IMG/VR virus record: IMGVR_UViG_3300035698_018211
Location: 1 to 26,829 of that record
From: a virus
Length of the DNA: 26,829 bases
Strand: one strand, 5' to 3'
Made by a program: the position numbers and the translations under genes. Below, one piece after another: positions 143 to 15,055 of this stretch. The notes beneath the pieces were generated by a model. The model saw only the letters and a program-made list of their open reading frames with translations. It was not told the origin of the DNA and made no database searches. How positions within the stretch are numbered: the stretch's first letter is position 1; each line of letters opens with the position of its first letter.

Positions 143-1198
143 ATGAACAAAGACAAAATTCAAATTTGTAATTGGTTATTAACAAGAAGATGTAATCTAA
201 AATGTTCATATTGTGCTATTACAAGAAATTATAAAAATAAACCAATTGAATATCCTGATATGAAATATTATCATAAAAATGAAATGTCAACTGAATATAT
301 CATAAATGGATTGAAAAATTTAAAGTTACATAATCCAAATTGTTTTAATATATTTTACGGGGGTGAACCATTTCTTAGAGATGATTTAGCAGATATTATA
401 AACTTTTGTAATAAAGAGAATATATATTATACAATTATTAGTAACAATTCTCCTGAAATTCAACCGAAAATTGAAAGCTTTTTTAAGAAAGTTGATATAG
501 TTTATGGTTTTACTGGATCAGTTGATCCTGTTTTAATTTGTGGTGATCCAAATGATGACAGAACTAAAAAGAGTAGATATGCAATTGAACAATTTTCAAA
601 TTTAAAATCTCGTGTAAAAGATTTAGTTGCTGAAATGACTGTATCAAAAGATAATATTCCATATTTGTTTGATACAATTAAATATTTAACAGAACTTGGA
701 GTATCAACTGATTTAACTTATATTGATATATCAAAGAATGATTATTATGATTTTTCTAATATTCATAGTTCAGATTTATTAGTCTCAAATTCAAGCGATT
801 TAAAAGAAATTATAAATTCAATGATAGAAAATAAATTTGATATTATTTTAAATGAAAAGAATATTGAAATGGCTGAATTAGTTTTACCTTCTAATTATGA
901 TTGTAAATTTGAAGATGGTATTCATAATATAACAATTGACGCTGATGGTTCTTTAAGAACTTGTTTAAGAATTTCAGGAATTAAATCACATAAACTGAAA
1001 TTACATTCTATATTTACAAATGATTCAAATCTTAAATCAGAAGTTAGAGAGTATATCGTTACTGATAAAAAATCATATTGTGAAGGATGTAACTGGACAT
1101 GTGTAGTATTTTCGAAATTTCTTTCTGTTGATGAAAATGTTATTAATGATTTGGGACATTTGGAAAAAAGAGGATTAAAAAATGAAATGGATAAATGA
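143..1198 (+). CDS. Radical SAM protein with SPASM-like C-terminal cysteine cluster
   Basis: The 351-residue protein has the radical SAM motif CNLKCSYC (Cys17, Cys21, Cys24), which binds the 4Fe-4S cluster that cleaves S-adenosylmethionine. A GGEP-type motif (YGGEPF, near residue 73) fits SAM binding. The C-terminal part has Cys254, then a Gly-x4-Cys element ending at Cys274, then Cys313, Cys316 and Cys320. This layout is typical of SPASM/twitch domains that hold auxiliary clusters in peptide- or protein-modifying enzymes. An AGGAG ribosome site lies just upstream of the ATG. The gene overlaps the next one by 17 bases. The substrate is unknown. It is longer than QueE and has the extra cysteine cluster, so I do not assign it to preQ0 synthesis. 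Confidence 0.85.
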   Translation: MNKDKIQICNWLLTRRCNLKCSYCAITRNYKNKPIEYPDMKYYHKNEMSTEYIINGLKNLKLHNPNCFNIFYGGEPFLRDDLADIINFCNKENIYYTIISNNSPEIQPKIESFFKKVDIVYGFTGSVDPVLICGDPNDDRTKKSRYAIEQFSNLKSRVKDLVAEMTVSKDNIPYLFDTIKYLTELGVSTDLTYIDISKNDYYDFSNIHSSDLLVSNSSDLKEIINSMIENKFDIILNEKNIEMAELVLPSNYDCKFEDGIHNITIDADGSLRTCLRISGIKSHKLKLHSIFTNDSNLKSEVREYIVTDKKSYCEGCNWTCVVFSKFLSVDENVINDLGHLEKRGLKNEMDK

Positions 1199-1466
1199 TA
1201 TTACATCCTTTTGGGAGCAAATAAAAGAAAACGAAGAAAGTATTATCAAGTTTGAAAAAAAGGATGGAACTATTCGAAACATGAGATGTACATTAGATTT
1301 TGATAAAATACCTAAAGAAAAAATACCAAAAGGAACTGGATCTACATCACCAGGAATTATTAAAGTTTATGATTTGGAAAAACGTGGTTGGAGATCTGTT
1401 ACATTTGAAAGAGTACTTTGGATAAAAGAATCTAAACAAAATGAAAGATTTTATATCAGGAGATAA
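1182..1466 (+). CDS. WYL_2/DUF2693-like small protein (Sm-like SH3 barrel)
   Basis: This 94-residue protein has the segment FEKKDGTIRNMRCTLDFDKI followed later by YDLEKRGWRSVTFERVLWI. I recognise this arrangement (charged KDGT hairpin, MRCTL strand, then a W-R-S-hydrophobic strand) from the phage family DUF2693, now called WYL_2, predicted to adopt an Sm-like SH3 barrel and common in T4-like and other large phages. The function is unknown; a nucleic-acid or ligand-sensing role is only a guess from the WYL name. The start overlaps the end of the radical SAM gene by 17 bases and has an AGAGGA site, indicating translational coupling. Confidence 0.65.
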   Translation: MKWINDITSFWEQIKENEESIIKFEKKDGTIRNMRCTLDFDKIPKEKIPKGTGSTSPGIIKVYDLEKRGWRSVTFERVLWIKESKQNERFYIRR

Positions 1467-1471
1467 ATGAT

Positions 1472-1843
1472 ATGACAATAATTAGTGAATTATTAGAAGG
1501 ATTTAAAAACAGTGATTTATCAGAAAAAGTTCAGATAATTTGTGATAGAATCGAAAAACAAGAAACAGAAGATGTTTATGAAAAATATAAACCAGATGGA
1601 GTAAATGTATTTTTATGTTTAAATATACCACCATTATTAAAAGGAGAAATTTCATTTCTATGTCTTGAAAGGGAATTCAAAGATCAATTTATAATTTCTA
1701 CATGGACAGGATATTTAACAAAAATTAAAGCGGGCTCAGAAAGAGTTAAAAGAGTTAAAATAATTCAAGTAAAGGAAGAGGAAGCAGAAAAGATATTAAA
1801 GGAATATGCAGAAGTATTAATTCATTACAAAAAGAGAAAGTGA
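1472..1843 (+). CDS. Hypothetical protein, 123 aa
   Basis: Not recognised. The protein has a helical N-terminus, a central predicted beta-rich part (VNVFLCLNIPPLLKG, then FIISTWTGYL), and a lysine- and glutamate-rich helical tail. No signal peptide, membrane span or metal motif is visible. An AGGAG site 9 bases upstream of the ATG supports the start; an ATG five bases earlier runs at once into a stop. The end overlaps the GTG that is an alternative start of the next gene by four bases. Its place at the head of the ubiquitin-like cassette makes an accessory role possible but unproven. Confidence 0.7.
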   Translation: MTIISELLEGFKNSDLSEKVQIICDRIEKQETEDVYEKYKPDGVNVFLCLNIPPLLKGEISFLCLEREFKDQFIISTWTGYLTKIKAGSERVKRVKIIQVKEEEAEKILKEYAEVLIHYKKRK

Positions 1844-1851
1844 GATTAAAT

Positions 1852-4299
1852 ATGTTACAAGAAGAAATAAGAATATCAGATGAATTTACAAATATTTATA
1901 TAACCGAAACCGAAACCGAAAAACCATTGATAAGAAAACAATCTTTTCTTACAAAAGAATTGAAAAATGTATTTAATAGTTCGGGGTATGATGATATTAC
2001 TCCATTAAATTGTAGATATAGTAAAAGATATAAAGATACAACAGCTTTTATAATTGAGGAACAACCAGCATTAAGAACAATTTTTATGAATATGAATTTT
2101 TCTAGTACAATTGAAAAATTGAAGAAAACTGGAAAATTTGAAAAATATAATATTAATGAAAGCGATTATAATAAACCTTTTGAAGAAGAATATCGATTTC
2201 AATTATCGTTTCCATATATTGAATATTTGCTTTTTATAAATAATAATAATTTCAGTTTAAATTATATTTATCTCTTTTTCAGATTATCACCTATTTCTAA
2301 TTTAAATGATTATTTACTCAAAGCAAATTTGTTAAACATAAATAATTCTCAGTTTATTTGTATCGGATCAAATAATACAAATATACAGAATAATGATATA
2401 AATGATATGTCGTCAGCTTGTCAATGTTATATTGATAATTTCTGGTCTAGTCCATTTAATCAAGATTATATTAATAATTATCAAAAATATTCAGAAAAAG
2501 ATGGTTGTGAAGAAATAAGTGATTATATATCATGGCAATATTATTCAAAAATAGATCCTATGTTTATTTTTAAAATGAATTGGATTCCATATGATAAAAA
2601 TTTCGAATATTTATTATCTAGTAATAATACGATAAATTATGATTATGCTGAAATTAAAAATATTATAACAAATGCAAATAAAGAAAAATATTCAAAATCT
2701 AATACACAATTTCTAAAAACTAGATTTGAATCTGATTATTTAGGGGGAATGGAATTATCAGAAGGTGATTCTATATTATTTAAATCTGGAAAAGAATCAT
2801 ATGTTTCACAAATTTTATTAAATGATAATGAATATAAATCAAAAAGTTCAATACTTCAATTGGAAAATGGAAAAGATGTTAAATATAAATTAACATCTGC
2901 ATTTAAAAATTATATTAAAAACCAATATATCAATAAAAATTATTTAGATAATGCTTTATTACCAAATGGACAAGAAATAAAAATAGGTAATATTTTAAAA
3001 ATTGAAACTTCTTTTACTGTTTACAAAAAAATTAAAAGCTTTAGAAAAGGAATTGATAATAGTATAGAAGTATCATTTTGTGATAGAACAAATGATTTTT
3101 ATATTTTAGAAAACATGAATGCAAACTTATATAATATTGAAAATATACAAATTCATGGAAAACAATTAAAAGAAGGAGATAAATTTTATCGAGTTATAAA
3201 TTCATTTATACCAGATGTTTATGGTGTTAATTCTCTTATAATATTTGACGAAATAGAAATAAAAAACAGCGGAAAAATATATTTATTATTTATAAATCCT
3301 AATAATCAGCATGAAAAGTCTTCAATAGAAGAGGTAGAAAATGATACAATTTCTGAAGAATCTTTTTCTAATGCTAGTTATGGAGTAATTAGATCATTTT
3401 TTAAATTATATTCTGTAAATTATAAAATTATAAAAAATAAATGTTTTGTTGATACTAAATATGATAATAGCGAATCGACATTTGAAAATATTTCTGAATA
3501 TCTTTTCAAAGATGACAATAAAACTCTTGAAATTCCTTCTCCATCATTAAATATTTCTTTTAGTATTGGGGATAAAGTTGTAGTTTCTGATTGGAATGAT
3601 CCAATTAATATGCTGATTCCAAAAACTATTATGAGCTTTATTATTAATGAAGAAACTTCCACAATTTCATTTGTGTTAATTGATAAAAAGGAAAATATAA
3701 CACAAGTTCCATATATTGTTGAAAGTTTTATTCATGTTGGAAAAATTAGAAAAATAACAAACTATTGGAATAATATTAATGCTGGATCAAAAATAAAAGC
3801 ACATGAAACAAAAATTAGCAATTTTCCAAAGAAAGATACAAATATAATAATTGGATTTATTACTGATACAGGAATTGATGAACCATTAGTTCTTTGTAGT
3901 AATTGTTGTACTTTATGGTTTAGTGATTTAATTGAAAAATTTACAATCATTCCAGTATCTAATTCTAAATGGAGTAAATATGAACATTGTGAAATAGATA
4001 TTAGTAAAATCAAAATACACCCATCAGATATTATTTCTATAAAAAATGATTCTGAACCATATGGAATTGTAACAGATAATAATAAATGTATAGAAAGGTA
4101 TTATTTACAAAAACGTGGATCTTATTATTGTGAATCAATTGGTCATGATAAACAATTATTTGGAATAATAACACCACGATACACTGTTAACCAACAATAT
4201 GAAATGGGTTTTAAATCTAGTATACCCACCCTACACGGAAGTATAATAGAAACCGAAAATACTTCTATATTCAGTTACTTAAAAGAAAGGAATGTCTAA
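1852..4299 (+). CDS. Large protein with N-terminal E2-like (PRTRC-B-like) region and C-terminal beta-barrel-like repeats
   Basis: From the ATG at 1852 the protein has 815 residues; a GTG at 1840 overlapping the previous stop is an alternative start. Residues of about 115-200 resemble the E2-like protein B of PRTRC cassettes: a strand pair (FQLSFPYIEYLLF), a second strand, then an N-x-FICIGS element with Cys170 where E2-like proteins carry the catalytic cysteine (their VCLG-type motif), then an acidic helix with FWSSPF, matching their FF-x-S-x-F. The rest holds several segments of the form 'I-x-x-GD-hydrophobic' (SEGDSILF, IKIGNILKI, LKEGDKFYRV, FSIGDKVVVSDW) that suggest repeated small SH3-like barrels, plus a CSNCC cluster. 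The family match is by eye and needs profile comparison. Its place directly before the JAMM and E1 genes strengthens it. Confidence 0.6.
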   Translation: MLQEEIRISDEFTNIYITETETEKPLIRKQSFLTKELKNVFNSSGYDDITPLNCRYSKRYKDTTAFIIEEQPALRTIFMNMNFSSTIEKLKKTGKFEKYNINESDYNKPFEEEYRFQLSFPYIEYLLFINNNNFSLNYIYLFFRLSPISNLNDYLLKANLLNINNSQFICIGSNNTNIQNNDINDMSSACQCYIDNFWSSPFNQDYINNYQKYSEKDGCEEISDYISWQYYSKIDPMFIFKMNWIPYDKNFEYLLSSNNTINYDYAEIKNIITNANKEKYSKSNTQFLKTRFESDYLGGMELSEGDSILFKSGKESYVSQILLNDNEYKSKSSILQLENGKDVKYKLTSAFKNYIKNQYINKNYLDNALLPNGQEIKIGNILKIETSFTVYKKIKSFRKGIDNSIEVSFCDRTNDFYILENMNANLYNIENIQIHGKQLKEGDKFYRVINSFIPDVYGVNSLIIFDEIEIKNSGKIYLLFINPNNQHEKSSIEEVENDTISEESFSNASYGVIRSFFKLYSVNYKIIKNKCFVDTKYDNSESTFENISEYLFKDDNKTLEIPSPSLNISFSIGDKVVVSDWNDPINMLIPKTIMSFIINEETSTISFVLIDKKENITQVPYIVESFIHVGKIRKITNYWNNINAGSKIKAHETKISNFPKKDTNIIIGFITDTGIDEPLVLCSNCCTLWFSDLIEKFTIIPVSNSKWSKYEHCEIDISKIKIHPSDIISIKNDSEPYGIVTDNNKCIERYYLQKRGSYYCESIGHDKQLFGIITPRYTVNQQYEMGFKSSIPTLHGSIIETENTSIFSYLKERNV

Positions 4300-5322
4300 A
4301 TGTTTAAAGTATTTATAAATGATGGAAAAGAAGAAATTCCTGATGATGATATTTTCTATATTGTTAGTAAAGAAGGGATCTTCCTAAAAAAGAAAACTGG
4401 TATAATTAATAGTGTGATGCCAGTAGATAAAATTTCAATTTTAAAAGATATAAATTTTATAAACCAAGCATCAATTGATATTCCAAAAATAGGAAGTGAA
4501 GATTTTGCAAAAATTGCAAGTTTCTTTAGAGAAGTTTATAAACAATTTAGTGGTGAATGTATAGCATTAGTTTATTTCAATGAAAAGTTAAAGAAATTTA
4601 AATTTGTAATTCCAATTCAAGAAGTTTCTCATGCTAACTTATCTTATAAAACAGAAAATATTTCAAATTACAATTTAATAGGAGATATTCATAGTCATGC
4701 AAATATGTCAGCATTTCATTCAGGAACAGATGATGCAGACGAAAAAGAATTTGATGGTTTACATATAACACTTGGAAATGTAAATACTGAAAATATTTCT
4801 ATTTCAGCATCAATTGTAGTTAATGGAAATCGTGTTATGATTGAACCAGAAGATTATATTTATGGAATTAAAAAAGCCCCTGTTAAAAAACCTAATGATG
4901 AAAATTTAATGAGAAATGGAGCTATGTTTGATTTTGGATCAAATTATTATAATTTCAATAATTCATACAATGATACAAATAAATATTTAATTGAAGTTTC
5001 AGAACAAAAAAGTAAATTTAATCCAGAGTGGTTATCTAAAGTTTCTAAATTTGCTCCTATTGCTACCAATCATAAAATAGATAATAAAAATTATATAACA
5101 AATCTAAAAAATCTATTCAGTAAGAATTATACAAAATCTTTTCATAAAAAATATGATCCACAATTACTTGATATTAAATCGCCTTGTGAAAATTGTATTT
5201 ATAGAGATTGTAAAGTTGATTTAATGATTGAAGATTTAGAATCTGAAAAAGTAGATGAAACAGATTGGTGGTGGGATGATAATCAAGAATATAATGATGA
5301 ACTTTTGAAAGGAAATTTTTAA
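4300..5322 (+). CDS. JAMM/JAB (MPN) metalloprotease, likely deconjugase
   Basis: The 340-residue protein has a complete JAMM zinc motif: His131-x-His133, seven residues, Ser141, two residues, Asp144, with Glu86 in SGECIAL as the expected upstream catalytic glutamate. JAMM proteases cleave isopeptide bonds of ubiquitin or trim the tail of ubiquitin-like proteins. The N-terminal ~80 residues precede the MPN fold, as in protein A of PRTRC cassettes. The C-terminal ~130 residues are low-complexity and rich in Asn, Lys and Tyr, with a Cys pair (CENCIYRDC) and an acidic end that may bind metal or partners. The ATG follows the stop of the E2-like gene directly, with an AAAGGA site, so the genes are coupled. 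The next gene starts immediately after its stop. Confidence 0.88.
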   Translation: MFKVFINDGKEEIPDDDIFYIVSKEGIFLKKKTGIINSVMPVDKISILKDINFINQASIDIPKIGSEDFAKIASFFREVYKQFSGECIALVYFNEKLKKFKFVIPIQEVSHANLSYKTENISNYNLIGDIHSHANMSAFHSGTDDADEKEFDGLHITLGNVNTENISISASIVVNGNRVMIEPEDYIYGIKKAPVKKPNDENLMRNGAMFDFGSNYYNFNNSYNDTNKYLIEVSEQKSKFNPEWLSKVSKFAPIATNHKIDNKNYITNLKNLFSKNYTKSFHKKYDPQLLDIKSPCENCIYRDCKVDLMIEDLESEKVDETDWWWDDNQEYNDELLKGNF

Positions 5323-6000
5323 ATGCGAATAATAATAATTGGAATTGGAGGAATTGGAACAATTTTAGTTGATAAAATTTCGAGATTTGTAAATTATTCA
5401 AATTTGGAAATTCAAGAAATGATATTGATTGATGGTGATGAATTTGAACCTAAAAATTCTGAGAGACAAGAATTTACTGAATTTGGTCCAAAGGCAGAAA
5501 TCAAAGCTTATGAAATTTCTAAAAAATTCAAATCATTGGGTAAAAGAGTTGGTTCAATAAATTATTATATTACAAATGATAACATAGGAGGAATTATACA
5601 AAATGGTGACATAGTCTTATTATGTGTTGATAATCATACATCCAGAAAATTAGTTTCTGATTATTGTTCAACCCTTCAAGATATTACTATTATTTCTGGA
5701 GGAAATGATTATACAGATGGAAATGTAATGGTTTATGTTAGAAAAAATAATATTGATATTACACCAAAAATTACAAAGTATCATTCAGAAATTAATAATC
5801 CTGAAGACAAACATCCTGAGGAAATGTCTTGTCAAGAACTTGCAAATGTTGAACCACAAATATTCTTTACAAATCTTATGGCAGCAACTTTTATGTGCTG
5901 TGCTTTTTACAATGTTATAATCAAAGAAAATTTTAAATATAGTGAAGTGTATTTTGATATGTTGAGTATGAAAAGCGATTCCAAAGTAAGAGAAGTCTAA
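5323..6000 (+). CDS. E1-like ThiF-family adenylating enzyme
   Basis: The 225-residue protein starts with a Rossmann strand and the GxGGxG loop (residues 7-12), then ILIDGDEFEPKNSERQ with Asp39, Asn45, Arg48 and Gln49 in the positions used by E1 enzymes for ATP and magnesium, then CVDNHTSRK (Asp103, Asn104, Arg108) as the second conserved block. Cys170 in EMSCQEL, followed by a QIFFTN helix, sits where ThiF proteins of PRTRC cassettes have their P-S-C...LFIN element, and is the candidate thioester cysteine. It would adenylate the C-terminal glycine of the ubiquitin-like protein encoded next. It is a minimal E1: no zinc CxxC pairs or C-terminal extension. The start abuts the stop of the JAMM gene, with a GAAAGGA site. 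Confidence 0.88.
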   Translation: MRIIIIGIGGIGTILVDKISRFVNYSNLEIQEMILIDGDEFEPKNSERQEFTEFGPKAEIKAYEISKKFKSLGKRVGSINYYITNDNIGGIIQNGDIVLLCVDNHTSRKLVSDYCSTLQDITIISGGNDYTDGNVMVYVRKNNIDITPKITKYHSEINNPEDKHPEEMSCQELANVEPQIFFTNLMAATFMCCAFYNVIIKENFKYSEVYFDMLSMKSDSKVREV

Positions 6001-6027
6001 AAAAACAAAACTCAAAGGAGATAAATT

Positions 6028-6513
6028 ATGTCTACACGTAAAAGCTTAACCGAAATGACCGTTGCCGAACTTCGCCAGATCTGTAAAAACAGTGGAATTA
6101 CTGGGATGAGTAAAAAGAGAAAAGATATTATCGTTGATGCTCTTTTAGCAAATCAAAATACCGTAGAACCAGTAGCAGAAGTAACTACTGAAAACGAAGC
6201 AGTAGAAGAAACACCGGTTGTTGATGAAAGGGTTAATAGTCTTGATGGAAGTTTTTCAAGTCATTTGTCCAAACCGAATGCAGCTTTTGGAAATAAGGCA
6301 ACAACCACGATTAGAGTTTCTTGTGGTGCATCCTCTGGATCTTTCCCGGTTATTGGAAAAACCGTAGGAGCAGTTGCTGAATTTCTTAGGGAAGTTCTTA
6401 ACGTTGAAAGAATGTCTCGCGGTCTTATTAATGGGGCAGATGTTGAAGATTCTTATATTTTGGCAGAAACGGATACTCTTGAGTTTCTGAAACCTGCTGG
6501 TCGTAAGGGGTAA
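6028..6513 (+). CDS. Ubiquitin-like beta-grasp protein with N-terminal SAP-like domain
   Basis: This 161-residue protein has three parts. Residues 5-42 (LTEMTVAELRQICKNSGI, then KKRKDIIVDALL) form a SAP/Rho-N-like helix-turn-helix that often binds DNA or RNA. Residues 45-70 are an acidic linker. Residues 90-161 look like a beta-grasp domain: TTTIRVSCG, a turn, TVGAVAEFLREVL helix, LINGADVEDSYIL and TDTLEFLKPAGRKG. The protein ends in glycine after Arg-Lys, like the GTKG end of PRTRC protein C, so it may need no trimming. The E1 and JAMM genes immediately upstream support a modifier role. It has an unusually strong AAAGGAG site. Its codons (GTTGCC, CTTCGC, ACCG, CGC) are visibly richer in G+C than those of its neighbours, which points to high expression or a different origin. 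Confidence 0.82.
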   Translation: MSTRKSLTEMTVAELRQICKNSGITGMSKKRKDIIVDALLANQNTVEPVAEVTTENEAVEETPVVDERVNSLDGSFSSHLSKPNAAFGNKATTTIRVSCGASSGSFPVIGKTVGAVAEFLREVLNVERMSRGLINGADVEDSYILAETDTLEFLKPAGRKG

Positions 6514-6541
6514 CATAAGCATTTTCAGTAACTAACTAATA

Positions 6542-6577
6542 TTTTGTGCTGGAGAAGAGTTTTTCTCCGGCACAAAA
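6542..6577. other. 15-bp inverted repeat (hairpin) after the Ubl gene
   Basis: Positions 6542-6556 pair with 6563-6577 through 15 bp, with one G-U pair at 6550/6569 and a 6-base loop. It lies 28 bases after the Ubl stop and just before the ribosome site of the next gene. There is no T-tract after the 3' arm, so it is not a classic intrinsic terminator. It may act as a 3' stabiliser or RNase processing site for the Ubl message, or as a weak terminator. Confidence 0.75.
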
Positions 6578-6590
6578 AGAAAGGATATTT

Positions 6591-6833
6591 ATGGGATATA
6601 GTGGAGACAAAGATAAACTAATAAAGCTTTTAGAACATTTAGGTGATAATGGTTCATTATTGTTATCTATTTTTTCTTATGATGGAGCAAAAGCAAAATT
6701 ACAAATACATAGATCTTTTGAAAAAAAAGATGGTACTATGTCATATGGTAAAATGGGAAGATTAACTCTTGATGAAATGAGATTCTTAAAAGATAATATA
6801 GAACAAATAATTGATATCATGGAGACTAAGTAA
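6591..6833 (+). CDS. Hypothetical small protein, 80 aa
   Basis: Not recognised. I start it at the ATG at 6591, which has an AAAGGA site; a GTG at 6546 in the same frame lies inside the hairpin stem and has no ribosome site. The protein has an N-terminal helix, then beta-rich sequence with a charged turn (KAKLQIHRSFEKKDG), a KMGRLTLDEM stretch and a final amphipathic helix. This could be a compact beta-sheet plus helix fold such as a small nucleic-acid binder, but no motif proves it. It sits between the Ubl and the second ThiF gene and could belong to the conjugation cassette. Confidence 0.75.
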   Translation: MGYSGDKDKLIKLLEHLGDNGSLLLSIFSYDGAKAKLQIHRSFEKKDGTMSYGKMGRLTLDEMRFLKDNIEQIIDIMETK

Positions 6834-6838
6834 TTTCC

Positions 6839-7699
6839 ATGTACAAATCTATAGCAATTATTGGATCTGGTTCACTAGGAAGTTTCATTGCTTATTCAAT
6901 TTCTCAATTAGACCAGATTGAAAAAATTGTATTAATTGATCATGATATTGTTTTACAAAAAAACTTGCGTAATACTAAATATAAAAAGAAAAATATCGGA
7001 AGATTAAAAGTTGATGCTTTAAAAGATATAATTTTAGATATTAGTGATATTGAAGTCAAAACATTTAATAAAAAATTCATTGAAAATAATATGGATTTAT
7101 CAGATTATGATTTAGTTTTAGATTGTAGAGATTTTACATATAATAGAACTACTAATATTCATACGAGATTATATATATCATCAAGATATTTAGTTGTGGA
7201 TTGTAGAAAAAATATTAGTTATGAAAAACAATATAAAGGAAAATATTTAAGCAAATTAACAAAAACTGATTTGAGAAATGCTGGAATAATATTTTCTATT
7301 CTCATAGAAAATAATAAATTAATTGATCTGATTAAGTTTCAAAGTGTAAATAGATTTGATTTAGATTATCTTAAAAATGAAATTCAAAATAATCAAGACA
7401 TCTTATACGAATCAAACAATGAAAATTTTGAAAAACAATTAATCAATCTTCCTGAAAACATAACAAATATTATTAATAGAAATAAACATAATCCAATTGA
7501 TATTTGTATTGGAAATAAAGAAAATCCTATTTATAAACAAATTATTCCCACCAATCTTTTACATGATAGTAAAGATTTAATTAATACTTTAGGAACTGCA
7601 CTTACAATTTCACCAACATTTAATACTTTTATTGTATCCTTCCAAAAAAGAGATGAGCAATATGTTTTAGAATTGATTCCAGAAACCGGAGCCGCATAA
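6839..7699 (+). CDS. Second ThiF/E1-like Rossmann protein
   Basis: The 286-residue protein opens with AIIGSGSLGS (Gly9, Gly11, Gly14), then VLIDHDIVLQKNLRN with Asp34, Asp36, Asn42 and Arg44, then NIGRLKVDALK, then LVLDCRDF. This order is that of the E1/ThiF nucleotide-binding half. The usual NxxRQ is altered (NLRNTKY), and no cysteine is obvious in the thioester position. The C-terminal half has no recognised motif and ends in a beta-rich segment. It may be an inactive partner of the E1 encoded at 5323-6000, as in heterodimeric E1s, or may act on another substrate. The ribosome site is weak, suggesting coupling to the upstream gene. Confidence 0.75.
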   Translation: MYKSIAIIGSGSLGSFIAYSISQLDQIEKIVLIDHDIVLQKNLRNTKYKKKNIGRLKVDALKDIILDISDIEVKTFNKKFIENNMDLSDYDLVLDCRDFTYNRTTNIHTRLYISSRYLVVDCRKNISYEKQYKGKYLSKLTKTDLRNAGIIFSILIENNKLIDLIKFQSVNRFDLDYLKNEIQNNQDILYESNNENFEKQLINLPENITNIINRNKHNPIDICIGNKENPIYKQIIPTNLLHDSKDLINTLGTALTISPTFNTFIVSFQKRDEQYVLELIPETGAA

Positions 7700-7700
7700 A

Positions 7701-8027
7701 ATGATTTCTGTTTCTAAAATTATTGTTCCTAATCGAGTTATCAACCATAATAAAATATATAAAATAACATACATTGCTAATAAGTTTATTATAAGAAATT
7801 ATTCTATTTCATTAGATAAATATAATCAATTTCTTGCTTTATTTATAAAATCAGAACATCCAAATTCAGAAAATGGAGAATTTTGTATACCAAAAGAAAT
7901 GTTTTTAAAACAATGGAATAAATCATTAAAAGAAAGAATGGAAAGAATGTTAAGTACGTTTAATTTGGATAATTGTTTCTATGTTCCATGGAACAATGAT
8001 TTGAAATATATTGAGGAATCATTATGA
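7701..8027 (+). CDS. Hypothetical protein, 108 aa
   Basis: Not recognised. The first half is predicted beta-rich (KIIVPNRVI, KIYKITYI, KFIIRNYSI), the second half helical with a charged segment (KEMFLKQWNKSLKERMERM). The ATG lies one base after the stop of the second ThiF gene, with GGAG ten bases upstream, so the two are translated together. It overlaps the next start by four bases (ATGA). No metal, ATP or membrane motif is visible. Confidence 0.7.
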   Translation: MISVSKIIVPNRVINHNKIYKITYIANKFIIRNYSISLDKYNQFLALFIKSEHPNSENGEFCIPKEMFLKQWNKSLKERMERMLSTFNLDNCFYVPWNNDLKYIEESL

Positions 8028-8453: not shown

Positions 8454-11165
8454 ATGCCATCTTTATTAGACTTTGATATATTTTGTGAATCACTTGAACA
8501 AATAACAACAACAAAAATTTTAACTAAAGGAAAATTTCATTCTGATGGATTATTTTCTGAACAAATATTCGGACCATTAAAAAATTATACATGCCAATGT
8601 GGAATATATCATGGAAAATCTCATAATGGTTCTAAGTGTAATATTTGTAATGTAGATATTGTTCATAGTACTGAAAGAAGAAGAAGATTTGCTAAAATCA
8701 TATTACCGATTCCTGTAGTAAATCCAATTTTTTATAATTTAGTAGCAATGGTTGGTGGATCAAATATAAAAAATGCAATTGATAATTTAATGAGAAATGA
8801 AAAAAGTGTTCTATATAAAGATGGTGATGAATTCATAGTTACTGACCAAGAAAATTTAGAAAGTAATATTCCAACATGGGATAAATTAGAAGCTATTCAG
8901 AAATTAGTTTTTGAATATGCTGAACAATGTCAAGAAGATGAATCCTGGAAATTAATAAAAGATAATATCGACAAATTGTTTATTAATAAAGTGATTGTTT
9001 TACCACCAGATGTAAGACCAATTTCAAAAAGTGGTGCAAATAATGTAAGAGTTGGAGATCAAATAAATAGATATTATGTTCAAATATTAACAAAAAAAGA
9101 ATCAATGTCTGGAACTGTAATTACAATTAATCAAGATAAGAAATTGTTTTATACTTATTTTCGACAATTACAAAAAGATGTTAATGAATTATATGATCAT
9201 GTATTAGGAAAGATGTCAAAAAAAGAAGGGTTAATAAGAGGAAATATTTTAGGAAAAAGAATTGATTTTTCAGGAAGAGCAGTTATTGCTCCAGAACCAA
9301 CTCTTAATTTTGGTGAATGTATTCTTCCTTATTTTATGATTTTAGAAATCTATAAAATTCAAATTGCAAAACGATTAATTGAAATAGGAAGATTTAAACT
9401 TTTAAATAAAGCAATTGATTTTGTTGATGATTGTATTGATACCAAAAACAATATTTTATTTGGATTAAGTAAAGAAATTGTAAAAGGTGAAGTTTGTTTA
9501 TTAAATAGACAACCATCTCTTCATAGATTAGGAATGTTAGGATTTAATATTCAAGTAGGATTAGATTCTGTTATAAAAGTTCATCCAATGGTAACCGGAC
9601 CATTTGGGGCAGATTTTGATGGTGACCAAATGGCTGTGTATATTCCAATTTCTGAAAAAGCTAAACAAGAAATAATTGATAAAATATTTGTTTCTAAAAA
9701 TTTATACAGTCCAGCAGATGGTTCATTATCAACGGTTCCATCCCAAGATATTATTTTGGGAATATATATTTTATCAACAAATTGTTTTCCAGAATTAAAA
9801 TCTGAAATTGAATATAAAGGATCAAAAATATCTTTAGCTTCAAAAGAAATAAATAATTGTTTTCCAAATGATTATAAATTAATAACTGGTTTAATCAGAA
9901 AGAAAGAATTAGTTACAATTTTAAATGAAATTAAAGATTTGTATGATGAAGAGATAACAACAAAAGTTTTAGATAATATCAAAAGAATTGGATTCAAATA
10001 TGCTACATTGTTTGGAACAACAATGACTCTTGAAGATTGTATGATAGAAGGAAGTGAAGAAATTAGAGATTCTATTTATGAATCAGAAAACATTTCAGAG
10101 CAATTACAAAATTCTTCTGATTTATCTATTACTGATATTCTTAGAGATAAATTTAAATATTCGTATTTGATTGATTCAGGAACTAGAGGAAGCTGGACAC
10201 AAATTAAGCAATTGATTTTAACAAGGGGGTTTGTATCAAATTTTGAGGGAGAAATTTTACCTTCTCCTATTAAAAATAGTTTGATACATGGATTAACAGA
10301 AAAAGAATTTTTCAATTCAACATATGGTTGTAGAAAAGGGTTATTGGATGTTGCATTGAATACGGGGATATCTGGATATCTTTCAAGAAAGTTAATATTT
10401 GCATGTGCTAATTTACAAATAAGTTTAGATGTAGATGATTGTGGAACTCAAGATTTGTTAGAAATATTTATCAAAGATGAAAAGAAAGCTAAATCTTTAA
10501 TTGGAAGATATTATAAAAAAGATGAAGAATTAAAACTTATAACAACTAATAATTTTCAAGAGATTATTAATAAAACTATTTCTGTAAGGAGTCCTATATT
10601 TTGTAAGAATGAAAGAATTTGTCATAAATGTTATGGAGATACTTTTGAAAAACTTCATACAAGATTCGTTGGAATTATTGCGGCTCAGACTCTTGGTGAG
10701 AAATCCACCCAGCTTGTTTTGAGAACTTTTCATGAATCGGGTTCAGCAAAAAGTAAACAATCAGAAAATGAATCAACTGAACCAGAAGATATGAAACAAG
10801 ATGACATTATTGCAGATTTAGCAACAGCTTCAAGAATTTTACATAAATTCAAAAACAAAAATATTAAAGAAATCATTGAACAATTATATGAAGTTTATGG
10901 AGGAAATAGTAATATCCTTCATGTACATTTTGAGTGTGTTTTATCTCAATTGATTTGGAATGGTAATAAAAAATGGAGACTACTCGAAAATAGAAATATG
11001 GTTGAAAAAGAATTTTTTAGTGTTCAAACAGTTCCTTCAAAAGAATCATGGGTTTTAGGTTTAGCTTTTAGTAATCCTAAAAAACACACATTAAGAGGAA
11101 TATTATATCCTGGTAATTATAAAGGATTGTTTGATAAGATTTTATCAGGAAAAGGAATAGAATAA
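8454..11165 (+). CDS. DNA-directed RNA polymerase beta' subunit (unsplit, phage type)
   Basis: The 903-residue protein carries the full series of beta' landmarks on one chain. An N-terminal zinc ribbon has Cys47, Cys49, Cys62 and Cys65. GNILGKRIDFSGRAVI is the rudder/double-psi region. LLNRQPSLHRLGMLGF is followed by GADFDGDQM, with Asp387, Asp389 and Asp391 as the magnesium-binding catalytic triad. A second zinc site (CKNERICHKCYGD) is followed by the trigger-loop helix IIAAQTLGEKSTQLVLRTFH at about 739-758. It is shorter than cellular beta' (about 1,200-1,400) but still complete, unlike the split subunits of phiKZ-like phages. With the beta subunit encoded next it would form the catalytic core of a phage RNA polymerase. 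AGAGGA precedes the ATG. Confidence 0.96.
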   Translation: MPSLLDFDIFCESLEQITTTKILTKGKFHSDGLFSEQIFGPLKNYTCQCGIYHGKSHNGSKCNICNVDIVHSTERRRRFAKIILPIPVVNPIFYNLVAMVGGSNIKNAIDNLMRNEKSVLYKDGDEFIVTDQENLESNIPTWDKLEAIQKLVFEYAEQCQEDESWKLIKDNIDKLFINKVIVLPPDVRPISKSGANNVRVGDQINRYYVQILTKKESMSGTVITINQDKKLFYTYFRQLQKDVNELYDHVLGKMSKKEGLIRGNILGKRIDFSGRAVIAPEPTLNFGECILPYFMILEIYKIQIAKRLIEIGRFKLLNKAIDFVDDCIDTKNNILFGLSKEIVKGEVCLLNRQPSLHRLGMLGFNIQVGLDSVIKVHPMVTGPFGADFDGDQMAVYIPISEKAKQEIIDKIFVSKNLYSPADGSLSTVPSQDIILGIYILSTNCFPELKSEIEYKGSKISLASKEINNCFPNDYKLITGLIRKKELVTILNEIKDLYDEEITTKVLDNIKRIGFKYATLFGTTMTLEDCMIEGSEEIRDSIYESENISEQLQNSSDLSITDILRDKFKYSYLIDSGTRGSWTQIKQLILTRGFVSNFEGEILPSPIKNSLIHGLTEKEFFNSTYGCRKGLLDVALNTGISGYLSRKLIFACANLQISLDVDDCGTQDLLEIFIKDEKKAKSLIGRYYKKDEELKLITTNNFQEIINKTISVRSPIFCKNERICHKCYGDTFEKLHTRFVGIIAAQTLGEKSTQLVLRTFHESGSAKSKQSENESTEPEDMKQDDIIADLATASRILHKFKNKNIKEIIEQLYEVYGGNSNILHVHFECVLSQLIWNGNKKWRLLENRNMVEKEFFSVQTVPSKESWVLGLAFSNPKKHTLRGILYPGNYKGLFDKILSGKGIE

Positions 11166-11182: not shown

Positions 11183-14100
11183 TTGAATTTAGTTAATCCA
11201 ACATTTGCTCTTAAAGATAAAAATATTTTTAAGTTGCGCTCAATTGATTATGACAATATGATGAATAAGATTGCAGAAATAGTAAAACCTGTAGAAGAAA
11301 TTGGTTTTACTATTTCTGAATTAGAATTAAAAGACTCAAAAACTTCTAATGGAGAATTACAAAAAACATTAAAGAAAAAAATAGTTATACGATTACAAAA
11401 GGGTGTATCAAATATTGATATAAGTATGTATATACCCAAATTGATAAATGATAATTATGTTGTAATAAGTGGAAGAGACAAAGTTCCATTATTTCAATTA
11501 TATGATCTTCCAGTTATTACAAGAGGAAAACATATAAAGTTAAATACTAATGTATCAAGTTTAATGATTTTTGAATCTAAAAAAGAACCATTTGTATCAG
11601 TTTCATTTATGTCGAAAAAAGTTTCTTTAGCACTACTTGTGTTTGCTTCATATCCAATTCAAGAAATTGTTGATAGATTTGATTTAGATAATGTTAATTC
11701 AGAATTAGCTGAAGATTGTAACATTTATGATAAATTTATTTATGATCTAAAAATTTATTATCAAGAATCTGCTGATTATACACAAGATGATTTTATTTTA
11801 GAAGTAGGAAGAAATTATTCAAAATATAATTCAAGATCAAAAGGAGAAGATATATTATATGGATTAGAATTAATTCCAAAAATTGATATTTTAACTTTTG
11901 AACATTTTAAAACTGATTCTGTTTTAAATGAATTAATTGAAGCAATGAAAATTAGACATATTGATGATACCGTATTTACAAATAAAAGAATAAGATGTTT
12001 TGAATATATGATATTTTCAAGAATCATAAAAGCTATTTATACTTTATGTATTTCATGTAAAAATGCAAGACAACCAAAATTTAATGTGAATTCAACTCAA
12101 ATTTTATCAGATTGTAATATTTCTGAAATAGTTCAATTTGATTTTTCTATTAATCCGATTGAAGAATTAACAAAATTATCAAGAATTAGTTTATTGGGTC
12201 CAGGAGGATTTTCAAGAGATAGTGTTCCGAAACATTTAAGAGATATTCATTCATCAATGTATGGTAGAATGTGTCCAGTTGATACTCCTGATAGAGATAA
12301 TTGTGGTATTTTACAAAGTTTAATTCCAAATGTTATTCTTGAAGATAACATGAAATTTTCAAATGAATATTTAGAAAATCAACCAATTTCAATTTCTGTT
12401 TCAATGGTTCCATTTTTAGAAAATGATGATCAAACCAGATTACAAATGTCATCATCTCAAATGCGACAAGCAATATTATTAAAAACTTTTGAAAAACCTT
12501 TAGTTGCAACAGGATGTGAACATTTATATACCAATCAAACAAAATTTATAAAGATTGCAAAAAAGAATGGGGAAGTAACTTATGTAGGAAATAAATATAT
12601 CATTGTTCAATATGATGATAACGAAGTTGAATTGTTTGATATTGAATATAGAAAAATTTATGTTGAACATATGGATTTTATGCATATTTATGTTTCACAA
12701 GGAGACAAAGTAAAACAAGGAGATATATTAGCCGAGAGTAATTTTTGTAAAGATGGAAATATTGTTTTTGGGAAAAACTTATTGACTACTGTAATGTCTT
12801 ATTATGGAAATAATTATGAAGATGGAATTGTTATTTCTGATAGATTAGTAAAAGAAGAAATAATGAAATCTGTACATTTTTATGATATGTCATTTACAAT
12901 TTCTCCAAATAAAGTTTTGTTATCATTACTTGAGAATCAATATAAACCATTACCAAATAAATTAGAAAGAATTAAAAAGGGTGATCCATATGCAATAATA
13001 AAAAGATTTTCTGAAAATGATATTTGTTCAATTTTTAGAAATAAAAATGAATATTTAGCACATAAAGATTTTATAGTTTCAGAAGTTAATCTTTATGCAA
13101 ATGAATGGAATGATTATATCCCAGGATATAAAGATTGGATAGAAGCAACAATTCAAAAACAAAAAGATGATCAAGTATATATTCAAAAGATTTTGAATGA
13201 AACGCTTGGAGCTAATAAAGCAAAAGAAATAATAAAAGATAATAATTTAGATAAATTTTCCTATACAGGAAAATATAAAGTAAAGGGTGAAAAAATAGAT
13301 GGAATGTTAGTTGAAATGTATGGTATTTATTATAGAAGTATTGAAGTCGGAGATAAGATTGCAAACAGACATGGAAACAAAGGAGTTATTGCAAAAATAG
13401 TAAATCATAAGAAAATGCCACAATTTGAAGATGGTCGTCATGCTGATATTTGTATAAATCCTTTAGGTATTATTTCAAGAATGAATATTGGTCAATTATT
13501 TGAATTAAGATTATCTGAATCAGTTTCAGATCTTAAAAATAATCTTTTCAAGTTAGTAAAACAAAATACAGATCAGGATCTAATAAAATTGTATTTATTG
13601 GATTATATTAAACTGGTTGATAATACAAAAGATGGGTGGTATTATCAACAATTTTCAGAAAAAATTCCTGATGTAATTGATGAAAAATTTGTTAATGATT
13701 TTAATGTTATACAACCTCCTTTTGAAGGAGTTGATTTTGAAAAATTAAGTCAAGCTTGTGCTTATACAGGAACTAAAGCAAAACAAAAAATATACGATCC
13801 AGTTTCTAAAAAATATTTATTGAATGAAATTGAAACTGGAAAAATTTATTTCTTTAGGATGGTTCATATTGCAGAAGATAAATTGTCAGCAAGAGGAATC
13901 GGACCATACTCAAGAAGAACTTTACAACCAACAAATATTAAAAGTAGAAATAAAACAGGAAGAGCCCAAAGAGCTGGTGAAATGGAAATTGCTTGTCTTG
14001 TTGCTCATGATGCTCATGAAAATTTATCTGAGTTCTTTACAACAAAATCTGATTGTATTGATTTGAAAAATGAATATATAAAGAAATTCATAAATACAGA

Positions 14101-14197
14101 TTTATTAATGATTCCAGAAAATGTTGATAAAACACCAGAATCAGTAAAATTGTTAAACTCATATTTTAAAGCAATTGGAGTAGAAAATGCTGAATAG
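11183..14197 (+). CDS. DNA-directed RNA polymerase beta subunit (unsplit, phage type)
   Basis: The 1004-residue protein starts at a TTG with GGAGG at 11170-11174; a nearby ATG is followed at once by a stop. It contains the beta landmarks in order: GPGGFSRDSVPKHLRDIHSS from Gly339 with MCPVDTP following, NLLTTVMSYYGNNYEDGIVI, GDKIANRHGNKGVIAKI with Lys725 and Lys733 matching the active-site lysines of bacterial beta, INPLGIISRMNIGQ, and near the end ARGIGPYSRRTLQPTN with GEMEIACLVAHDA. It lacks large lineage-specific inserts. It follows beta' by 17 bases, the reverse of the bacterial rpoB-rpoC order. No sigma-interacting partner is visible in this window. Confidence 0.96.
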   Translation: MNLVNPTFALKDKNIFKLRSIDYDNMMNKIAEIVKPVEEIGFTISELELKDSKTSNGELQKTLKKKIVIRLQKGVSNIDISMYIPKLINDNYVVISGRDKVPLFQLYDLPVITRGKHIKLNTNVSSLMIFESKKEPFVSVSFMSKKVSLALLVFASYPIQEIVDRFDLDNVNSELAEDCNIYDKFIYDLKIYYQESADYTQDDFILEVGRNYSKYNSRSKGEDILYGLELIPKIDILTFEHFKTDSVLNELIEAMKIRHIDDTVFTNKRIRCFEYMIFSRIIKAIYTLCISCKNARQPKFNVNSTQILSDCNISEIVQFDFSINPIEELTKLSRISLLGPGGFSRDSVPKHLRDIHSSMYGRMCPVDTPDRDNCGILQSLIPNVILEDNMKFSNEYLENQPISISVSMVPFLENDDQTRLQMSSSQMRQAILLKTFEKPLVATGCEHLYTNQTKFIKIAKKNGEVTYVGNKYIIVQYDDNEVELFDIEYRKIYVEHMDFMHIYVSQGDKVKQGDILAESNFCKDGNIVFGKNLLTTVMSYYGNNYEDGIVISDRLVKEEIMKSVHFYDMSFTISPNKVLLSLLENQYKPLPNKLERIKKGDPYAIIKRFSENDICSIFRNKNEYLAHKDFIVSEVNLYANEWNDYIPGYKDWIEATIQKQKDDQVYIQKILNETLGANKAKEIIKDNNLDKFSYTGKYKVKGEKIDGMLVEMYGIYYRSIEVGDKIANRHGNKGVIAKIVNHKKMPQFEDGRHADICINPLGIISRMNIGQLFELRLSESVSDLKNNLFKLVKQNTDQDLIKLYLLDYIKLVDNTKDGWYYQQFSEKIPDVIDEKFVNDFNVIQPPFEGVDFEKLSQACAYTGTKAKQKIYDPVSKKYLLNEIETGKIYFFRMVHIAEDKLSARGIGPYSRRTLQPTNIKSRNKTGRAQRAGEMEIACLVAHDAHENLSEFFTTKSDCIDLKNEYIKKFINTDLLMIPENVDKTPESVKLLNSYFKAIGVENAE

Positions 14198-14209: not shown

Positions 14210-15055
14210 TTGATAGAAACTATTTTACCAGATATTCAACAAACCAAACCATTAATTGAAATGCCCATATTTCAAGTTGGTGTTGATAATGTAGAAGTTC
14301 CATTTTATCTTGAAACCAGAGATAATAAATTCTATTCAATGATTGCTAATGTTTCTATAAGGACGAATCTTAAAGAAAATATAAAAGGAATATCTATGTC
14401 AAGGTTATTATTAACTTTAAAACCTTATTTAGATATCCCTTTAAAAAGATTGCTTATTAAAGAAATTCTTGAAAAATTAAAAATAAATCTTGAATGTGAA
14501 AATGTTAATATGAAATTCGAATTCAAATTACCAATTATAAGAAAATCTTTATTATCAGATAATGAATTTCCAATTTATTATAAATGTAGATTTGAAGGAC
14601 AATTAGTAGATAATGAATTTAAATTCTATCAAGGAGGAACAATACAGTATGCATCATATTGTCCATGTTCAGCAGAGTTATGTAATGATTTAAAGTCAAA
14701 AGGAAGTTCTGGGTTTCCTCATGCACAAAGATCATTTGCATATGTTTTAATTGAATCTGGTGAATCAACTATTTGGTTAGAAGAAATAATTAGTTTAGTA
14801 GAAGATTCTATAAAAACTAAACCGTATCCAATTATAAAAAGAATTGATGAACAAGAAATTGCAAAAATAGCAGCAGATAATCCAATATTTGTTGAAGATG
14901 CAATTAGACAAATATCACAAGCTTTGAATTCAGATAATAAAATTATTGATTGGATTGTGAAATGTAAACACGAAGAATCAATTCATATTTCAAATGCAAT
15001 TGCTATAAATTGGAAAGGAATTGAAAATGGATTTAATGGGAATTATTATTTGTGA
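14210..15055 (+). CDS. folE2: GTP cyclohydrolase IB (FolE2 family)
   Basis: The 281-residue protein fits FolE2 in length and motifs: GVDNVEVPFYL near the N-terminus, KGISMSRLLLTL (family K-G-x-H-M-S-R), and YCPCSAELC with Cys151 as the expected catalytic cysteine, followed by PHAQRSF with His171. It is expected to convert GTP to dihydroneopterin triphosphate, the entry to folate and to preQ0/queuosine. In phages such genes usually serve 7-deazaguanine synthesis for DNA modification, but queD, queE, queC and DpdA-like genes are not in this window. The start is TTG, with AGGAGG at 14197-14202. The family histidine in K-G-x-H is isoleucine here, a change worth noting. Confidence 0.9.
   Translation: MIETILPDIQQTKPLIEMPIFQVGVDNVEVPFYLETRDNKFYSMIANVSIRTNLKENIKGISMSRLLLTLKPYLDIPLKRLLIKEILEKLKINLECENVNMKFEFKLPIIRKSLLSDNEFPIYYKCRFEGQLVDNEFKFYQGGTIQYASYCPCSAELCNDLKSKGSSGFPHAQRSFAYVLIESGESTIWLEEIISLVEDSIKTKPYPIIKRIDEQEIAKIAADNPIFVEDAIRQISQALNSDNKIIDWIVKCKHEESIHISNAIAINWKGIENGFNGNYYL

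Follow-up and report, generated by a model that had tools for sequence, protein, structure and literature searches.

The window analyzed here is a 26,829-nucleotide stretch of viral DNA (positions 1 to 26,829 of IMG/VR record IMGVR_UViG_3300035698_018211), in which positions 1840-6513 probably encode a self-contained phage module for the conjugation and deconjugation of a ubiquitin-like modifier (Ubl), with a complete cycle of activation, transfer, and removal. Read along the + strand, its four genes specify an E2-like protein, then a JAMM protease, an E1-like adenylating enzyme, and finally the Ubl, and the cassette adjoins genes for the beta' and beta subunits of RNA polymerase. The proposal draws on computed homology, invariant active sites, co-conservation of the genes, and a Ubl tail that can be processed, from which a reaction and its order can be suggested. 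The module is near-universal equipment of a lineage of very large phages.

A conserved four-gene cassette in a phage lineage

To collect relatives, IMG/VR was scanned with Ubl, E1, and rpoC queries, and loci were counted as distinct by E1 sequence; an alignment pooling unlike proteins was used solely as a container for family scans. All four genes were recovered in 59 further distinct phage loci, on one strand and in the order E2-JAMM-E1-Ubl in 59/59, and in each of them the Ubl gene is followed, 0.75 to 2.7 kb downstream, by rpoC; most of these relatives are contigs of uncertain completeness and the loci are akin, so the counts do not equal independent events. A set seeded with rpoC, and hence presupposing no cassette, comprised 51 loci with at least 9.5 kb of upstream DNA, 50 of which contain all four genes. 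A preliminary description of the window, made from the letters alone, had read four consecutive genes as E2-like, JAMM, E1, and Ubl and had proposed searching phage genomes for their co-occurrence; the open reading frames, the profile matches, and the catalytic residues, invariant across approximately 60 phage loci, agree with that reading, and the co-occurrence is borne out by the 59 loci. It had also called a full set beside phage RNA polymerase genes unusual. No report of a full E1-E2-JAMM-Ubl set in a phage was found in the open-access library searched (journal papers, not preprints), and a 2021 survey of jumbo phages makes no mention of JAB, ThiF, or E2-like proteins (PMC7824862); within this clade, however, the arrangement is the rule.

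One locus, L175, lacks exactly these four genes while retaining radical SAM, WYL_2, g108, g81, and a second ThiF-fold gene (ThiF2), indicating that the four form one module. With the Ubl and E1 profiles, neither a Ubl nor an orthologous E1 was detected elsewhere on this 92-kb contig, a record that may be a fragment of the phage, and none was detected in the 321-kb record of a more distant polymerase relative (L193, 39%). When 50,697 phage records were searched by tblastn, E2 and Ubl gave no match and E1 gave one weak match. A BFVD match to gp579 of phage G was also followed and set aside, as phage G matched neither E1 nor E2. Comparison of the window with locus L001 by a simple counting method yielded ratios of nonsynonymous to synonymous substitution rates (dN/dS) of 0.15 for E1, 0.32 for Ubl, 0.51 for JAMM, and 0.59 for E2. 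Overall, conservation of the cassette is far beyond chance. The earlier assignment to a jumbo-type phage is made likely by relatedness, as relatives with the module reach contig sizes of 203-312 kb, above the 200-kb mark that defines jumbo phages, the window itself being a 26.8-kb fragment. Three phage-type contigs of the clade (L077, L078, and L102) have been assigned to genome bins of Thermoplasmatales, Heimdallarchaeota, and Woesearchaeota, probably in error, although an archaeal host is conceivable.

Components of the module and the proposed reaction cycle

The E2-like gene extends either from GTG 1840 (1840..4299, 819 residues) or from ATG 1852 (1852..4299, 815 residues), the latter start fitting that of the nearest orthologue better. 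This was regarded as the weakest of the four original assignments, and it has gained support from its orthologues. The window protein matches Prok-E2_D (PF14460) with an E-value of 0.003 and 17.7 bits against a gathering cut-off of 25 bits; the same family is matched by 31 of the 38 E2 orthologues at E <=0.1 (best, 1.2e-6), and PRTRC_B is matched by 12 of the 38 (best, 4.8e-4), the window protein itself being unmatched. The predicted domain, of Prok-E2_D type, covers approximately residues 88-220 and bears the signature N166-x7-C174, of which both residues are invariant across informative phage E2 sequences (57-63 informative sequences per family); no His is invariant in this alignment. In eukaryotic E2s, the Asn of the HPN motif and the catalytic Cys are likewise eight residues apart. 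In the AF2 model (pLDDT 82.2), residues 88-220 form a helix, a strand meander, an active-site loop, and further helices, an arrangement that agrees with an E2; beyond them the chain is rich in beta structure over a long stretch. At the profile level, the E2 identity appears solid.

The beta-rich part, approximately residues 285-819 (~530 residues), is modeled as a string of SH3-like barrels of the KOW/Tudor type. This array was found only in phage E2 proteins; its profile matches no bacterial E2 found, and its only matches outside are on L077 and L078, the phage-type contigs binned as archaeal. Foldseek with the whole E2 model returned SPT5 (DSIF) chains of RNA polymerase II complexes as the best PDB matches (E 2.6e-6), and VIA alignments of residues 296-640 gave Z scores of 4-6 to Tudor, KOW, and BAH-type barrels. 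In L102, a 717-residue gene product beside a stand-alone 233-residue E2 was considered as a split-off array; the hhalign match was weak (2.7e-4, 109 columns, probability 42%), and no such claim is made.

The JAMM gene (4300..5322) encodes a JAB/JAMM metalloprotease matching Prok-JAB (PF14464; 7.5e-6) and PRTRC_A (5.6e-13). Its motif, E86...H131xH133...S141xxD144, is complete in 63/63 aligned sequences, and its C-terminal tail carries a CxxC pair. The E1-like enzyme (5323..6000, 225 residues) matches the ThiF profile at 5.4e-18 and displays GxGGxG, D39, N45, R48, K61, D103, and an invariant C170, with R48, K57, D103, and C170 present in 62/62 aligned sequences; matches of the E1 profile in the PDB include MoeB, Uba4, ThiF, UBA5, and BubCD. 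Of the features noted from the letters alone, the JAMM motif and the E1 nucleotide-binding blocks correspond to Prok-JAB and ThiF matches with invariant residues, and the glycine-ended beta-grasp protein corresponds to ThiS/TGS matches.

The Ubl (6028..6513) joins a Rho-N/HeH nucleic acid-binding domain (residues 1-47) to a C-terminal beta-grasp (approximately residues 88-161) ending in LKPAGRKG. Among 37 Ubl orthologues, Rho_N is matched by 34, TGS by 30, and ThiS by 28, and PDB matches of the family profile are mostly to ubiquitin and also to MoaD. The model superimposes on the Rho N terminus with a Z score of 8.1 and a root-mean-square deviation of 1.0 over 47 aligned residues; in Foldseek searches with the whole Ubl model, the Rho-N domain dominated the matches, followed by RCK_C-like rows. 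The sequence GxKG closes the beta-grasp in nearly every phage Ubl, the exceptions being AYDKG (L179, L197) and PADRKG (L180). Additional residues beyond GxKG occur in 23 of 59 Ubls, of which 15 have a recurrent lone Cys, seven have some other short tail, and one, in L059, has approximately 66 residues (L180 was counted as unextended). In L033, the gene product consists of two full Rho-N/Ubl units placed one after the other (...PAGRKG-ADETATS...). Given these extended tails and the tandem Ubl, a protease cutting after the last Gly is to be expected, and the JAMM gene supplies a candidate. The preliminary description had suggested mass spectrometry for GRKG remnants on lysines; this does not stand, as the conserved penultimate Lys of GxKG would lead trypsin to leave a single Gly (+57.02 Da), a remnant isobaric with carbamidomethyl.

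Over 45 Ubl genes in relatives, the G+C content averages 12 points above that of the locus (0.40 versus 0.26 in the window); this elevation is limited to the Ubl gene, the other cassette genes having no such excess, and is possibly a sign of strong expression. Promoter and terminator scans gave signals no better than chance. Four relatives (L137, L141, L167, and L191) have, in the interval from g3 to the E2 gene, a second small gene that encodes a Rho-N domain with an acidic tail and no beta-grasp.

Taken as a pathway, the cycle would begin with the JAMM enzyme trimming the Ubl precursor after the conserved GxKG. The E1 would then adenylate the C-terminal Gly, capture the Ubl on Cys170, and hand it to Cys174 of the E2, from which it would be transferred to target amines, with the C-terminal SH3-like array serving as a built-in substrate-recruiting (E3-like) part. 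The JAMM enzyme would also take the Ubl off its targets. Such a module would offer a compact natural E1-E2-Ubl-protease pathway in which the part that chooses the substrate is likely built into the E2.

Neighboring genes, possible targets, and alternative roles

From the E2 gene through ThiF2, adjacent genes are spaced by -4 to 32 bases. Downstream of the Ubl gene lie a gene for a 95-residue protein with no assigned function (6546..6833, + strand) and the ThiF2 gene (6839..7699, + strand; ThiF, 4e-12). Both fall within the stretch (1852-7699) that the preliminary description gave to the cassette; their positions stand, and they are not members of the core. The small protein occurs in about 11 of 45 loci and is hence non-core. 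ThiF2 was rejected as a core E1 partner, being present without the Ubl genes in L175 and absent with all four genes present in L182, and its association is closer with the polymerase genes than with the Ubl module. It displays G9xGxxG, D34, K57, and D95-C96-R97, with an invariant D-C pair where E1 has D-N and a conserved C-terminal ETGAA. Further downstream on the + strand are the rpoC-like gene for a beta'-like subunit (8454..11165; ADFDGD motif; phrog_25354, 1.6e-91) and the rpoB-like gene for a beta-like subunit (11183..14197; phrog_24349, 3.9e-89), and a FolE2-like gene (14210..15055) flanks the region downstream. The upstream neighbor (143..1198, + strand) encodes a radical SAM/SPASM-like protein (PF04055, 1.6e-10) that also matches viperin-type models; it was found in 49/51 loci and stays where the Ubl module is lost. 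Terminase and tape-measure-like genes are also encoded in the window, downstream of the cassette.

As a tentative guess, the likeliest target would be the phage (or host) transcription complex or nearby nucleic acid-bound proteins, since the module travels with RNA polymerase genes, the E2 array resembles SPT5, and the Ubl carries a Rho-type domain, although each of these pointers is weak alone. A more specific core function, in which the E2 with its SPT5-like KOW array reversibly tags the phage multisubunit RNA polymerase complex (or nucleic acid-bound host factors) with a Rho-N-tethered Ubl, is conceivable and must be called doubtful.

Several points weigh against the proposed conjugation module and its suggested target. 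Support for the E2 fold comes from profile matches and secondary structure: when PDB sequences were searched using the E2-domain profile, no match and hence no solved E2 structure was obtained, and the fold search of the E2 model returned none, its list being filled by the C-terminal barrels, so that this second result says nothing against an E2 fold. The beta-grasp half of the Ubl model gave no strong Foldseek match. The SPT5 likeness of the array may reflect just a common arrangement of SH3-like barrels, and gene adjacency is no proof of a transcription target. No E3 or substrate of the module emerged, and the evidence is computational throughout.

Other roles were weighed on the same evidence. 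An anti-defense or host-takeover function, in which host proteins would be tagged or stripped of tags by the module, as in countering CBASS Cap2 or Bil conjugation, would suit a phage-encoded system whose JAMM enzyme could strip host tags, and bacterial Ubl systems do act against phages (PMC10097602; Bil, PMC11354881). It is nevertheless judged unlikely: a complete writer with its own Ubl exceeds the needs of a decoy or eraser, and the module keeps its synteny and is all but universal in the clade (50/51), unlike the usual patchy counter-defense genes. Somewhat less likely is a part in virion morphogenesis, with the Ubl tagging structural proteins or packaged RNA polymerase during assembly in the manner of the Ubl/JAB of lambda-type tail clusters. 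The downstream terminase and tape-measure-like genes, the pairing of Ubl with JAB in lambda TAPI/TAPK (PMC1779556), and the likely high expression of the Ubl are in line with this role, but lambda-type clusters comprise Ubl and JAB only, without E1 or E2 (PMC1779556), the module lies directly upstream of polymerase genes rather than tail genes, and both the Rho-N domain and the KOW-like array suggest a connection with nucleic acid or transcription.

A sulfur relay, in which the Ubl is a sulfur carrier of the ThiS/MoaD/Urm1 type and the cassette serves a thio-modification (of RNA, DNA, or a cofactor) in partnership with the radical SAM and FolE2-like proteins, would account for the closeness of the Ubl profile to ThiS/TGS/MoaD, the MoeB/ThiF type of the E1, and the proximity of those two genes. 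It is considered improbable, as the core module includes an E2 domain with an invariant Cys plus a JAMM enzyme, the radical SAM gene persists in L175 without the four genes, and no rhodanese or cysteine desulfurase profile match was obtained among the ten genes at 143-8027. That the cassette was captured from a bacterium and is now a decayed or inactive remnant is scarcely credible; the nesting of phage E1s within the bacterial group of the E1 tree speaks for it, but key catalytic residues are invariant over approximately 60 loci, dN/dS is 0.15-0.59, and gene order is kept.

A working conjugation module would have broader implications. Such sets were previously known from bacteria and plasmids, and a near-universal set in a phage lineage is unexpected. 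Bacterial Ubl conjugation has so far been tied to anti-phage defense and mobile elements; a writer-eraser set kept by phages would reverse this picture and raises a testable question, namely, what the phage needs to tag.

Bacterial relatives and relation to known systems

In one scan of bacterial and archaeal genomes, chromosomal E2-JAB-E1-Ubl cassettes were identified in Methylomirabilota, Thermodesulfobacteriota/Myxococcota, Lentisphaerota, and candidate phyla; at several loci, mostly of Thermodesulfobacteriota/Myxococcota, only JAMM and E1 were recognized by profiles. In the E1 tree, all phage sequences except the long-branched L180, which is not placeable, form one clade (97/93) that includes L078. 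Its sister is a pair of Uhrbacteria sequences sharing the Rho-N/Ubl fusion, and both are nested in a bacterial group, far from Firmicutes and plasmid E1s. The simplest reading would be one early acquisition followed by mainly vertical descent. The two Uhrbacteria contigs (L113 and L122), chromosomal-looking, encode that fusion together with two large E2 paralogues (700-1041 residues), the second of which lacks the catalytic Cys (UEV-like). In six Methylomirabilota loci (L100, L103, L095, L111, L086, and L081), an AAA ATPase gene immediately precedes the cassette, an arrangement that might join a bacterial Ubl system to an unfoldase.

The preliminary description had compared the cassette with PRTRC, CBASS, and Bil; the parts are indeed similar, but defining features tested for each of the three are lacking. 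For PRTRC (TIGR03735-TIGR03737), PRTRC_A and PRTRC_B are the main NCBIfam matches of the JAMM and E2 proteins, and the E1 matches PRTRC_ThiF among ThiF models. Membership was rejected, as the scores of the window proteins fall far below the curated cut-offs (48.9 versus 101.8 bits for A, 30.5 versus 144.75 for ThiF), none of the 37 phage Ubls matches PRTRC_C at E <=1, and no ParB, ParM, or other PRTRC gene was found among the ten genes noted above. Bil (BilABCD), Bub, and CBASS Cap2/Cap3 share the logic of E1, E2, JAMM, and Ubl (or substrate), and the E1 profile reaches BubCD structures. Bil E2s contain a CEHH motif, with E, H, and H at +6, +8, and +13 from the Cys (PMC11354881), whereas the phage E2 has none, C174 of the window being followed by IGSNNTNIQNND; Bil is moreover a standalone anti-phage operon, and the phage module lies on phage contigs beside RNA polymerase genes, so that membership in Bil was rejected. 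CBASS was likewise rejected: Cap2 is an E1-E2 fusion beside a CD-NTase, the phage module has E1 and E2 as separate genes, and no CD-NTase family match was found among the same ten genes. PADLOC returned only generic E1-E2 and viperin-type matches.

Related in make-up to the bacterial chromosomal cassettes is the operon classed as type 6d by Iyer et al. (2006), in which a Ub-like protein with a C-terminal Gly, an N-terminally extended JAB, E1, and E2 are separate genes, accompanied by an extra alpha-helical protein, and the E2 has an invariant downstream His (PMC1779556). The phage E2 has no such His and is fused to the SH3-like array, and the phage Ubl is fused to Rho-N. The KOW array of SPT5, for its part, is matched in structure but not in sequence by the E2 protein; with VIA Z scores below 6, the likeness may be convergent. 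Acinetobacter phage ME3 (KU935715), a cultivated jumbo phage, contains JAB-N, ThiF, weak E2-like, and weak Ubl-like genes within approximately 6 kb (L214, 135964-142003; ThiF ME3_130; E2-like ME3_136, 5.9e-5; Ubl-like ME3_139, 3.7e-6), suggesting that phages outside this clade also carry parts of such systems. Its genes are very divergent and scattered, the 21 kb that were read include no annotated RNA polymerase gene, and the JAB gene is apparently interrupted: its 144-residue "PRTRC system protein A" breaks off where the JAMM motif begins (...VVVMDIH), and next come a tRNA and small homing-endonuclease-like open reading frames.

Judged from sequence, the nearest family is the bacterial chromosomal cassettes rather than PRTRC, Bil, or CBASS. 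These have the same four proteins, mostly in the same order, with E1s approximately 45% identical to the phage enzyme, Ubl tails of the type EF[LIVM][KR]xxGxKG, and the E2 Cys kept except in the second paralogues of the two Uhrbacteria loci. They differ from the phage module in an E2 that is often stand-alone (~220-267 residues) and never has the phage SH3-like array, in a Ubl that usually lacks Rho-N (Uhrbacteria L113/L122 have it), and in having no RNA polymerase neighbor.

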